Source: Desulfitobacterium dehalogenans ATCC 51507 (GTDB lineage: Bacteria; Bacillota; Desulfitobacteriia; Desulfitobacteriales; Desulfitobacteriaceae). Taken from it: a DNA stretch of 64,000 nucleotides. Under the pieces are notes generated by a model that ran no database searches, was not told the DNA's origin, and saw nothing but the letters and a program-made list of their open reading frames with translations. This document shows positions 10,118 to 61,008 of this stretch, one piece after another. Position numbers and translations under genes: made by a program. Position 1 is the first letter of the stretch. Each line of letters opens with the position of its first letter. Location of the stretch: NCBI RefSeq assembly GCF_000243155.2, contig NC_018017.1, positions 2,356,001-2,420,000 on the forward strand, given 5' to 3'.

Positions 10118-10954
10118 ATTATCCAGGTCGGTAAAATCAACCAACTCGAAGTTGCTAATCTCACTTCTTTTGGGGTCTATCTCAATGCAGGGACGGGTAA
10201 CCGTAAAGATAATGTTCTTCTGCCGGGAAATGAATGCCCTGACGACATAAAAGAAGGGGATAACCTAGAGGTATTCATTTACCACGATTCAGAAGGCCGT
10301 TTAATCGCCACTCGTAAAAAGCCCTTAGCACAAGTAGGAGAGCTTGCCTATCTTAAAGTTACAGCAAAGACAAAAATTGGCGCTTTTATGGACTTTGGCT
10401 TAGAACGTGGTCTCTTTCTCCCCTTCCGAGAGCAAAAACACCTCATAGAAGTGGACAAAAGTTATCTTGTGTATCTTTATCTCGACAAAAGCGGGCGCTT
10501 ATCTTCCACAACGGATATCACTGACTTTCTCAGCTCCGCTTCTCCTTATCAAAAAAATGACTCCATCACAGGAACAGTCTACCAAATCCATCCCGAAATT
10601 GGCGTCTTTGTAGCTGTTGATAATAAATATCTGGGCCTGATTCCCCGTACAGAGAATTATTCAGAGCTCAAATGGGGAGATCGGGTTCAGGCTCGAGTGA
10701 TTCGAGTCCGGGATGATGGAAAGCTGGACCTTTCTCCTCGCAATCTCTCTCACCAACAGATGAACGTGGATGCTGAGCTTCTCATCAACGCCATGAATGC
10801 CCATGGAGGAGTACTCCCTCTCAATGAAAAATCCAGTCCCGAGGAGATCGAAAAGGTTTTTCACATGAGTAAAGCCGCCTTTAAACGAGCAGTGGGGGCT
10901 TTGCTTAAGAGCGGACGCATAAAAAAGACCGGTGACGAACTCCGATTCCCCTGA
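10118..10954 (+). CDS. cvfB: CvfB-type S1 RNA-binding protein, apparent ATT start
   Basis: RNA-binding protein with several S1/OB modules and a C-terminal winged helix (residues about 215-278, EEIEKVFHMSKAAFKRAVG), the layout of CvfB. The first ATG in frame (10388) would delete 90 residues including the first S1 domain. Upstream the frame encodes IQVGKINQLEVANLTSFGVY, which is the family N-terminus. It is closed by TAG at 10103 and contains no ATG, GTG or TTG. AGGGAGG stands 7 bases before ATT at 10118-10120, so ATT is proposed as start (278 residues). A terminator follows the gene. Confidence 0.87.
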   Translation: MIQVGKINQLEVANLTSFGVYLNAGTGNRKDNVLLPGNECPDDIKEGDNLEVFIYHDSEGRLIATRKKPLAQVGELAYLKVTAKTKIGAFMDFGLERGLFLPFREQKHLIEVDKSYLVYLYLDKSGRLSSTTDITDFLSSASPYQKNDSITGTVYQIHPEIGVFVAVDNKYLGLIPRTENYSELKWGDRVQARVIRVRDDGKLDLSPRNLSHQQMNVDAELLINAMNAHGGVLPLNEKSSPEEIEKVFHMSKAAFKRAVGALLKSGRIKKTGDELRFP

Positions 10955-10971: not shown

Positions 10972-11018
10972 AACGGCAGATGCCTATCCTTTAGAGGTCG
11001 GCACCTGCCGTTTTCGTT
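10972..11018 (+). terminator. terminator of cvfB
   Basis: Hairpin AACGGCAG-A-TGCC / GGCA-C-CTGCCGTT (10972-10984 with 11000-11012), followed by TTTTCGTTT on the plus strand, 17 bases after the stop. Confidence 0.85.
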
Positions 11019-11097
11019 TATAATGATGCCAGCTGTAGATGAAAGGCTATTCTCTAGGATTATATTTTCCACGTTCACTCATCAGGTATTACCCTAG

Positions 11098-11211
11098 GGT
11101 TTGGCGTCGAAAGTGTCCGGTGGACAGTTTCGCTCAAGGCGGCAAGCTATAAAGCATACTTATCCGCCGCAGATGCTATTAAGAAAGCGAGTTCATCAGC
11201 CCTGGAGCTAT
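11098..11211 (+). repeat. dispersed structured repeat, copy A
   Basis: A 114-base stretch that matches the reverse complement of 60588-60701 without gaps, with 11 mismatches by eye (about 90% identity). Two stems are kept: CGAAA-G-TGTCC / GGACA-G-TTTCG, and GGCGG / CCGCC. Seven of the mismatches fall in the loop between GGCGG and CCGCC and one in the first stem's loop. It sits between the 3' ends of cvfB and the DUF401 gene. Bases 11212-11285 share shorter pieces with copy B, such as GTAAAGCTAC and CTTTTCATC. No coding sequence is apparent here. Confidence 0.85.
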
Positions 11212-11285
11212 TGAGGGAGCGTTGTGCGTAAAGCTACACGACGCGAGCCGTCTTTTCATCTCCCGCCGTTACCCGCTGCTGCCGC

Positions 11286-37578: not shown

Positions 37579-37808
37579 CCTAATCCCTCTACTGCCCCCT
37601 CCGCCAAACCCTTGGCTCTTGTGTGTAAATCTACGCTTACGGGTCATTTCAATCATTATTTTCCGGGTAAATGTGATCCGCTTCAAAAAGAATATCCTTA
37701 TTATAGATTAAACCAGCCCTTCATTCCAGCAAAAAATATTGACAACATTAAGATATCTCTTTGAACTTTTCCAGGGTAGTGCTAACACAATAGAATCTCA
37801 CTAGACGG

Positions 37809-47677: not shown

Positions 47678-47719
47678 CTACTCACTTTTACTAACTATAC
47701 TGCTTACGAGATGGGGACT

Positions 47720-48604
47720 TTAGCGGCAATTTACCCCCAATGCCGTCCAGGTTCGAATCCCTACAATGCCATCTTGTACAAGGCCTCTGCTCTTTTGGAA
47801 GGCAATTACTGCTGCTTGGGTTCTAGAACCGAAAATCCCATCAATCGCTCCAGGCCTAAAGCCTTGTGCTATCAATAGGGATTGCAGTTCTTTAACAGCC
47901 GCCCCCCGAGATCCCATCCGCAAAGTCGGACAAGCGTGTGGGTGCGGGTGCGGGGATGGTGTCATGCAATTAACCCCCAGCGCCGTCCAGGTCCGGACGC
48001 CCACTATACCGTCTTGCACTAATCCCTTACTTCTTTGGAAAGCAACGACTGCTGCTTCCGTTCTCGGTCCAAAGATCCCATCAATGGCCCCCGGACTGAA
48101 GCCATGGGATGTAAGAAGCTGCTGCAGATGAACCACAGATGGCCCCGTCGAACCTTGACGCAAAGTGGGACAAGAGTGCGGGTGCGGGGATGGTGTCATG
48201 CAATTAACCCCCAGCGCCGTCCAAGTCTTAACCCCAACGATTCCATCCTGTACCAAACCCCGACTGCCCTGGAAAGCGATAACAGCTGCTTCTGTTCTCG
48301 GTCCGAAGATTCCATCGATAGCTCCTGGACTAAAGCCGTGAGATGTAAGAAGTTGCTGTAAATGTACGACTGAGGGGCCTTGAGAACCCTGTCTGAGAAC
48401 GGGGCAAGCTTCGCCTTGACCAGGCATTTGTGGATGCATTGGATGCGTTGGGCATGGTTGTGCTGGAACACAAATAACTTGACCTGGGAAAAGACACATA
48501 GGATCAGCAATTTGCGGATTTAACATGAGAAGCTCTTCTACTGTAGTATTAAACATACAGGCAATGTCGAAAAGAGTTTCCCCAGGTTTTACCACATAAT
48601 TCAT
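47720..48604 (-). CDS. LysM protein with three peptidoglycan-binding repeats
   Basis: 294 residues. LysM domain 2-46 (MNYVVKPGETLFDIACMFNT), a Pro/His linker, then three PG_binding_1 domains at about 67-135, 145-213 and 225-293, each ending WTALGVNC. No signal peptide is visible, as in many spore-coat or cortex LysM proteins of Firmicutes. The ATG at 48602-48604 has AAAGGGG; an upstream frame adds 14 residues without support. No catalytic domain is present, so it probably anchors or docks to cell wall. Confidence 0.85.
   Translation of the reverse strand: MNYVVKPGETLFDIACMFNTTVEELLMLNPQIADPMCLFPGQVICVPAQPCPTHPMHPQMPGQGEACPVLRQGSQGPSVVHLQQLLTSHGFSPGAIDGIFGPRTEAAVIAFQGSRGLVQDGIVGVKTWTALGVNCMTPSPHPHSCPTLRQGSTGPSVVHLQQLLTSHGFSPGAIDGIFGPRTEAAVVAFQRSKGLVQDGIVGVRTWTALGVNCMTPSPHPHPHACPTLRMGSRGAAVKELQSLLIAQGFRPGAIDGIFGSRTQAAVIAFQKSRGLVQDGIVGIRTWTALGVNCR
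47723..48406 (-). repeat. three tandem coding repeats of 234-240 bases
   Basis: The DNA of the three peptidoglycan-binding domains is a direct repeat; for example CCCCCA followed by GCCGTCCA recurs at about 47734, 47974 and 48208. Repeats 1 and 2 of the protein are almost identical (QGSxGPSVVHLQQLLTSHGF in both), which points to a recent duplication. Repeat 3 is more diverged. Confidence 0.8.
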
Positions 48605-59495: not shown

Positions 59496-60461
59496 CTAAG
59501 CCAGAAGTTCCAAGGTGTAGGTTAGCCCCATGGCAAGGGAACCTACCAATCCAAAATAAAGAATGGCAAACTGTACTCTTTCCTTTAATGGCACCTGATA
59601 ATAGGCTGATAGATCATGTCGCTTTTTCCATAGATTGTAGACTTGAACTAATCCCAAGAACACGATAATCAAAAGGATAGGGTTAAAGGACTTAATCAAG
59701 AGATAGATCAAGACAGGGATTCCCACGAGCCATAGATAGGGGGAGACTGCAGAAACAATTCGCCCTCCATCCAAAGGATGAACAGGAAGAAGATTAAAAA
59801 TATTAAGGAAGAACCCGACATAAGCGAGAACCAGAGCCAGTTCATACCCTGTAAACCAGTAGAGCATCAAGCACAGCACAGCAGCCAGACTCCCAAAAAG
59901 GGGACCGCCATAACCAACTTGAGCTTCAGTCACCGCATCTTTTGGGTTTTCCTTCATACCGATTAATGCACCCACGAAAGGAATAAACACAGGGCCTGAT
60001 ACGGCTAAGCCAACCCGCTTCGCTGTGAAGTAATGACCCATTTCATGAATGAAGAGTAACGCTACAAATCCCAAGGCAAATTTAGCGCCATAAAATACGG
60101 CATAGATCCAGATCGTAGCCACCATGGACACCGCAGTGGTGGCAAACTTACTAAGCTTAAGAAAGACGAAGAGAAACTTGAATTTAGACAATAGGAAAAT
60201 GATAATAAATTTCCCCTTCGTCAACAAAGGAATGGCGAAGGCTGCTGCAGCCCATAAACCCTTTTTGTTCCCTGTCTTGGATGTTTTGTTTTGTTCGTCA
60301 AGATACTGTTCATCAGAATATTCATCCTGATAAACAATATCTTGATCCGCCCCATCGTATTCCGAGGAAGAGGAAAAGTCCTCTTCTCTTCCCTTCTCCT
60401 GATCCAGCTTATCGATAATCCATCCCTCCTTAGCATTTACTTTTGCAGGGTAACCGGCCAT
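59496..60461 (-). CDS. M50 site-2 protease-like membrane metalloprotease
   Basis: Intramembrane zinc protease. HEMGH in FIHEMGHYFTAKR near 139 and the second-half motif NLLPVHPLDGGR near 225; six or seven helices. The first 70 residues are acidic and soluble (SSSSEYDGADQDIVYQDEY). The start is uncertain: ATG at 60461 gives 321 residues, but a near-perfect AAGGAGG lies 12 codons inside and is followed 5 and 8 bases later only by ATT and ATC. ATT at 60417-60419 may be the true start, as proposed for cvfB. The gene begins beside repeat copy B. Confidence 0.85.
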   Translation of the reverse strand: MAGYPAKVNAKEGWIIDKLDQEKGREEDFSSSSEYDGADQDIVYQDEYSDEQYLDEQNKTSKTGNKKGLWAAAAFAIPLLTKGKFIIIFLLSKFKFLFVFLKLSKFATTAVSMVATIWIYAVFYGAKFALGFVALLFIHEMGHYFTAKRVGLAVSGPVFIPFVGALIGMKENPKDAVTEAQVGYGGPLFGSLAAVLCLMLYWFTGYELALVLAYVGFFLNIFNLLPVHPLDGGRIVSAVSPYLWLVGIPVLIYLLIKSFNPILLIIVFLGLVQVYNLWKKRHDLSAYYQVPLKERVQFAILYFGLVGSLAMGLTYTLELLA

Positions 60462-60531
60462 GCCACTGCACCTGCAATGGATGAAAAGCGTCGTCCGGAT
60501 CGAGTAGCTTTACTCACAATGAACCTTCGGG

Positions 60532-60581
60532 CGTGAGCTCCTGAAACCCTCCACTGGAGGCTTTCTTCATCGGAGCTCACG
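60532..60581. repeat. nested hairpin at the end of repeat copy B
   Basis: Outer perfect arms CGTGAGCTCC (60532-60541) and GGAGCTCACG (60572-60581). An inner stem CCTCC/GGAGG (60548-60552, 60556-60560) sits in the loop. It is absent from copy A, where the flanking sequence continues directly to GTGCGTAAAGCTAC, so it looks like an optional module. Confidence 0.75.
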
Positions 60582-60587
60582 TACTCT

Positions 60588-60701
60588 ATAGCTCCAGAGC
60601 TGATCAACTCGCTTTCTTAACAGCATCTGCGGCGGATAAGCGTTCTTTGGAGAATGCCGCCTTGAGCGAAACTGTCCACTGGACACTTTCGACGCCAAAC
60701 C
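60588..60701 (-). repeat. dispersed structured repeat, copy B
   Basis: Inverted second copy of the 114-base element at 11098-11211, about 90% identical by eye, no gaps. The CGAAA-TGTCC and GGCGG/CCGCC stems are identical in both copies while the loops differ. On the minus strand it stands upstream of the M50 protease gene. Shared pieces continue beyond the core (GTAAAGCTAC at about 60507, CTTTTCATC at 60480-60488). Confidence 0.85.
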
Positions 60702-61008
60702 CCGCTGCTTTCTGCATGTGGCCGCTCCTGCACGTCCATGTGCCCGCGGCATCAGGACCTCCATGTCCAAGCAACCAGTGGCTACGCTACGTTAAGAAAG
60801 CCTCGTTGACCCGGTCGCTCCTCCGCTTAAAGAAAGGTGAGTGAAGCGAAGCAGAAGCCTTAGCAGCCTTATACACAGTGAAGGCCGTTCCCTTTTGTGC
60901 GCAAAGCTACGTTCATAGGTCTATTCAGCTCCCATTTTGGGCTTTTTAAGGACTTTCTTGGAATCCGCTTGCAACTCCTTTACGGAGCAGTGACACCCGC
61001 TCCCCTTT
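60702..61008. other. GC-rich noncoding block with degenerate repeat modules
   Basis: No ORF with a credible start was found. Short motifs of the dispersed element recur: GTTAAGAAAGC at about 60791 in the opposite orientation to the core, and GTGCGCAAAGCTAC at about 60897. Several small stems can form, for example CCCA/TGGG followed by TTTTT near 60932-60948. It may be a structured RNA or a decayed repeat array. Confidence 0.45.

Follow-up and report, generated by a model that had tools for sequence, protein, structure and literature searches.

E1, a modular structured repeat family of Desulfitobacterium dehalogenans whose fold may matter during spread

What kind of sequence gives rise to two inverted copies within one 64,000-nucleotide stretch of the Desulfitobacterium dehalogenans chromosome (the window), and what might its fold be for? 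A repeat search of the 64 kb paired positions 11097-11215 with 60584-60702 in inverted orientation (119 nt without gaps, 90% complementary), and the window holds no other inverted pair longer than 30 nt; the corresponding genome match has an E value of 2.6e-40, far above chance expectation. The original prediction had described a gapless match of about 90% between copy A (11098-11211) and the inverted copy B (60588-60701), which was borne out, with 11 differences over the 114 bases, 7 of the 11 inside the loop between GGCGGC and CCGCC, and none in the TGTCC/GGACA and GGCGG/CCGCC stems. It had also expected many copies from the presence of two in 64 kb, and searching the host genome (G000, a single contig of 4,321,753 bases, 4.32 Mb) yielded at least 67 copies of an element that we call E1. 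The 114-base repeat did not stand as the element itself, however. Twelve genome matches span the whole 114 bases and dozens span the 3' part only, and the 114-base span lacks natural boundaries because the unit is larger and modular; they consist instead of an optional 67-base module, M3, with flanks inside E1. The two stems are parts of M3, which is common to copies A and B and is contained in 12 of the 67 E1 copies.

E1 is a structured repeat family, probably folding as RNA, that appears to be previously uncatalogued. Its copies, collected from the matches and then oriented, are intergenic and 200-430 bases long. A plain E1 has three parts: an outer stem, which is a perfect 18-bp inverted repeat (arms GCGTAGCTTTACGCACAA and the complementary sequence); a core stem formed by GGTCAACGAGGCTTTCTTAAC and GTTAAGAAAGCGAGTTGACC; and an apical core that hardly varies (GGTTCACATCAGGTATTACCC-n-GAGGTTT). 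Sequence conservation reaches background about 50 bases 5' and about 25 bases 3' of the outer stem. No description of E1 was found in the literature searched, the coverage of which was limited and incomplete. Rfam 15 gave no gathering-threshold match in the window, and a relaxed search of loci L007, L010, and L013 returned chance-level matches only. The window also carries a solo fragment of the E1 5' end at 37596-37648 on the minus strand (83% over 54 bases), at a locus without the remainder of the element. A different repeat in the window, three tandem units of about 233 nt with 65-78% likeness, occupies 47702-48408 and probably encodes repeated protein domains.

Locus A lies on the plus strand downstream of a gene at 10388-10954, the intrinsic-terminator-like hairpin of which (10972-11019) is also found in a close relative (G002), and element A begins right after it. 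Copy A is chimeric, as its left end derives from a second repeat, E2: a remnant of the E2 left end (11050-11080, within an E2 match at 11041-11080) is fused to E1, and the E1 5' arm is missing. The apical core ATCAGGTATTACCCTAGGGTTTGGC (11081-11105) is followed by M3 (11108-11174), which comprises two hairpins, namely CGAAAGTGTCC-GGT-GGACAGTTTCG and then a GGCGG...CCGCC hairpin with a variable loop. Next come the 3' arms of the core stem (GCTATTAAGAAAGCGAGTTCATCAGCCCTGGAGC, 11175-11208) and of the outer stem (TTGTGCGTAAAGCTAC, with a GACGCGAGC tail, 11222-11248).

Locus B lies on the minus strand. Its E1 copy has an outer stem with a 5' arm (GAACGTAGCTTTGCGCACAAAAGGGAACGG, 60885-60914) and a 3' arm (60502-60519), between which are located, in 5' to 3' order, a partial module M1 (60836-60880), the core stem 5' arm (60780-60811), a module M2 inside the apical core (60721-60772), the GCAG-type apical core itself (CACATGCAGAAAGCAGCGGGGTTTGGC, 60694-60720), the second copy of M3 (60625-60691), the core stem 3' arm (60602-60624), and a module M4 with a CTCACGCCCGAAGG hairpin (60517-60583).

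These optional hairpin modules, M1 to M5, are inserted at fixed points of E1. None of the four scored modules (M1, M3, M4, and M5) is present in 38 E1 copies, and the remaining copies bear M1, M3, and M4, with M5 nested within M4. In a comparison of module stems that left out the L139 row, M5 and a module of E2 share the two-hairpin plan of M3, and their stems differ by compensatory changes (GGCGG/CCGCC, AGCGG/CCGCT, and GCCGC/GCGGC), in agreement with the selection on a fold that the original prediction had proposed for the GGCGG/CCGCC stem. M2 was detected in only one of the 67 host copies (copy B), and occupies the identical insertion point in two other genera (G009 and Desulfosporosinus lacus). 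It forms two hairpins, and all six loops from the three genera fit CANGGANG; these loops lie at 60721-60772 (minus strand) in the window, on the minus strand of L140 near 1455, and in L147 near 5942. The CANGGANG pattern resembles the consensus of CsrA sites.

E2 has at least 49 matches in the host genome and is found upstream of 54 of the 67 E1 copies, never at the other side and in a single arrangement, with E1 facing away. Comparison of the copies suggests that E2 and E1 have opposite sense strands, because orientation-neutral shared changes (14:0 cells) point this way and the M5-like module is carried in the same sense; one count from the forward fold points to the other strand. About 39 places in the host genome (L246-L275) carry a hairpin linker, CTTTTCATCCTCTGCTGGTGCCGC..GCGGCATGGCCGGCTACTCTGAAAAAG, which often adjoins E1 and E2.

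The fold of E1 itself covaries strongly. When 29 sequences from the host genome and other genera were aligned, two-sided changes were observed in 21 of 21 E1 pairs, and 92.5% of the alignment cells pair compared to at most 44% after sliding by 1-3 columns; all shuffle and slide controls fell far below the observed pairing. The core GGTTCACATCAGGTAYTACC..GAGGTTT hardly changes from genus to genus, whereas the stems are wholly different and yet still pair. The 114 bases are not unusually stable when folded as single sequences (z of -0.1 to -1.7), and the support for the fold, as judged from the aligned sequences, is comparative and not based on free energy. Neither of the outcomes that the original prediction had named as contrary to it, few further copies or stems without compensatory change, arose. 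When 299 genomes sampled across the phylum were searched with a model of the core, seven contained it. Four of these belong to the host's family (the host among them), a fifth to a different family of the same order, and a sixth (G128) to a different family of the same class; the seventh, a weak match (E of 8.6e-4), comes from a further family outside the class. BLAST searches with E1 gave matches in 15 of the 41 near relatives (the host genome counted), among them additional members of its genus, and an exact-core scan of named genomes gave a single match, Desulfosporosinus lacus.

Presence and absence at orthologous sites support the proposal that this noncoding element is mobile. The flanks of both loci are collinear in G002, where 15 and 18 bp replace the 264 bp of locus A (11015-11278) and the approximately 576 bp of locus B (60431-61006). 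Among 28 further E1 loci, 26 were located in G002, and at least 12 of them have no element there (3-107 bp compared to 248-914, or flanks that slightly overlap), while the others are occupied in both genomes; counting A and B, at least 14 loci have an empty or near-empty orthologous site. At L021, G002 carries a short E2 in place of E1. The outgroup G003 also lacks E1 at locus B, and B is thus probably a gain by parsimony. At the locus orthologous to A, G003 (L136, about 2000-2300) contains AAAGACCCATTAGGGTAGCTTCTCACACACTAGTGAATGATTTT, which resembles the E1 5' end without the rest, and because of this apparent remnant a loss in G002 is possible at A. Direct repeats of 6-7 bp flank the insertions at L027 and L011 and are missing at L023 and L010, and thus no target-site duplication of constant length was found at these four loci, where short duplications could be blurred given relatives that are about 79-92% identical. 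E1 therefore matches a MITE in its terminal inverted repeats, copy number, and filled and empty sites, as the description "REP/MITE-like or RNA" had implied, but not in target duplication; membership in REP/RAYT was not supported, as the REP transposase Y1 (PF01797) has no match in the element-bearing genomes G003, G009, and G128.

If the elements move, the question is when their fold matters. In 64 copies, with the structure taken from other genera, variants shared among copies are rarer at paired than at unpaired sites (291/3434 vs. 408/2452, p of 6e-17), whereas private variants are not depleted at paired sites (20/3434 vs. 21/2452, p of 0.27). This contrast is expected if the fold matters during spread and not for each resident copy, and the best reading is that spread, not a function of the individual sites, is what kept the fold. 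Single copies may be under weak selection, since the private variants are few (41).

Which molecule folds is less sharply defined. On the proposed sense strand, G·U cells outnumber A·C cells by 64:5 (35 copies, RNAalifold pairs), 111:13 (64 copies), and 86:13 (structure from other genera), the last comprising 82:9 shared and 4:4 private cells. The strong strand claim drawn from the RNAalifold pairs was tempered, however, because the choice of pairs favors the folded strand. For E1 pairs predicted on both strands, G·U and A·C changes number 13 and 7 events (p of 0.26), and in other genera 9 and 6 (not significant), while the derived orientation-neutral count of shared pair-type events is 9:0 (3:0 in E1 and 6:0 in E2). 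The loops of the proposed sense strands are rich in purines (66% and 71%), and in several copies CA/TG in the core stem is switched to tandem G-A mismatches. A fold acting as RNA of one strand, the plus strand at locus A, is moderately favored by these observations and not proven, because part of the G·U excess stems from picking pairs by one-strand folding.

Taken together, E1 is probably a structure-dependent, modular, non-autonomous mobile repeat whose copies spread among the intergenic regions of chromosomes in the Desulfitobacteriaceae. One strand can fold into a long hairpin made up of the outer stem, core stem, and apical core, with modules at fixed points. This fold, most likely as RNA of the plus strand at locus A, would be required when a copy propagates, and the apical core may serve as the recognition site of a trans-acting machinery, after which single inserted copies would drift nearly neutrally with no required local function. 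A less likely explanation is a palindromic MITE acting at the level of DNA, in which the inverted repeats are needed as terminal repeats or as an extruded hairpin for a transposase, pairing is upheld by selection on DNA or by template-switch repair between the arms, and the RNA fold is a by-product. The perfect outer stem and the insertion polymorphism agree with it, template switching would yield two-sided changes too, and the strand asymmetry is modest in the orientation-neutral counts. On the other hand, G·U exceeds A·C in the same orientation in all sense-fold counts while unpaired columns show no strand bias (no excess of C>T over G>A), and the purine-rich loops, the tandem G-A mismatches, which suit RNA, and the inconstant target duplication also argue against a DNA-level MITE. 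It is unlikely that each copy is instead a regulatory RNA of the host, such as a local attenuator, terminator, mRNA stabilizer, or riboswitch-like element. Strong covariation with a nearly invariant core would fit such a role, copies often lie behind gene ends or terminators, and ERIC and BOX copies can affect neighboring mRNAs (PMC2229807, PMC3049150). However, the co-orientation of E1 with upstream genes that was hinted at by A, B, and a few more loci dissolved into 31 same and 28 opposite orientations, presence differs between close relatives, private changes are no rarer at paired than at unpaired sites, the elements of low-copy genomes neighbor unrelated housekeeping genes, and the Rfam searches gave no match.

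A small RNA made from many copies and acting in trans, such as a protein sponge, with the CsrA-site-like loops of M2 as putative binding sites, appears very improbable; six of six M2 loops in three genera fit the pattern and the invariant core could be a protein site, but M2 was found in a single host copy, and no promoter-like site was found in the one composite examined. There is also a slim chance that E1 is a bacterial counterpart of SINEs, its folded RNA serving as a template in trans for a resident reverse transcriptase or another RNA-handling system, in which case selection on pairing would act only while a copy propagates. Mobilization in trans by a reverse transcriptase is possible, although RVT_1 did not discriminate, being found in 17 of 17 genomes whether or not the element was detected. 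The single RVT_1 of G000 (1357424) is separated by about 20 kb from the closest E1 listed, and with a reverse transcriptase neither restricted to bearing genomes nor adjacent to E1, the element does not resemble a group II intron or another unit mobilized in this way. For the preferred structure-dependent mobile repeat, no linked transposase or other mobilizer was found, nor was a partner gene beside the elements of low-copy relatives. Searches of plasmid, phage, and viral contigs gave no E1 match, the host-genome matches included no long E1 or E2 interrupted by a gene, and there was no sign of lagging-strand targeting (about 35 co-directional vs. 31, counted by eye with the origin assumed at position 1).

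By behavior, E1 appears closest to the BOX, bcr, and ERIC/NEMIS repeats (PMC3049150, PMC3446304, PMC2229807). BOX elements of Streptococcus pneumoniae are intergenic, high-copy, non-coding sequences of 67-637 bp in which boxB modules are present or absent, and have a strong predicted RNA fold with an optional module that folds independently (PMC3049150). E1 is likewise intergenic and high in copy number, and its optional modules are self-folding (presence table of M1, M3, M4, and M5; hairpins of M2 and M3), a likeness by description with no sequence relation known; however, BOX makes target duplications, whereas E1 carries modules at several fixed points, which may nest, and has a core that is maintained between genera and even outside the order. 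The bcr1-bcr3 repeats of the Bacillus cereus group are, like E1, MITE-like and intergenic, and are often transcribed in UTRs or operons, and conserved secondary structures are described for the related bcr10 and bcr18 (PMC3446304). Whereas bcr1 is said to be confined to the B. cereus group (PMC3446304), the E1 core was also detected elsewhere in the order and in the class (G128), with one weak match in a more distant family of the phylum, and E1 is usually accompanied by E2 in a fixed arrangement. ERIC/RU-1 and Correia/NEMIS are small mobile sequences of <200 bp with base-paired transcripts, and NEMIS exists with or without a 50-bp internal piece (PMC2229807) comparable to the E1 modules, but E1 is longer, at 200-430 bp, can hold as many as four modules, and showed no target duplication of constant length. 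REP/RAYT palindromes are also multi-copy and intergenic, E1 being much larger. Transposase-driven movement of such repeats was hypothesized in a 2007 review, with experimental support absent (PMC2229807), and if the fold of E1 acts as RNA, the mobility mechanism of such repeats would need rethinking. The contrast between shared and private variants makes testable the old question of whether repeat folds benefit the host locally, copy by copy, or the element while it spreads, and the swappable hairpin modules make E1 a good test case for the dependence of small selfish elements on an RNA fold. To the bacterial interspersed structured repeats, E1 adds a large modular member with a core kept across genera and stems replaced compensatorily.
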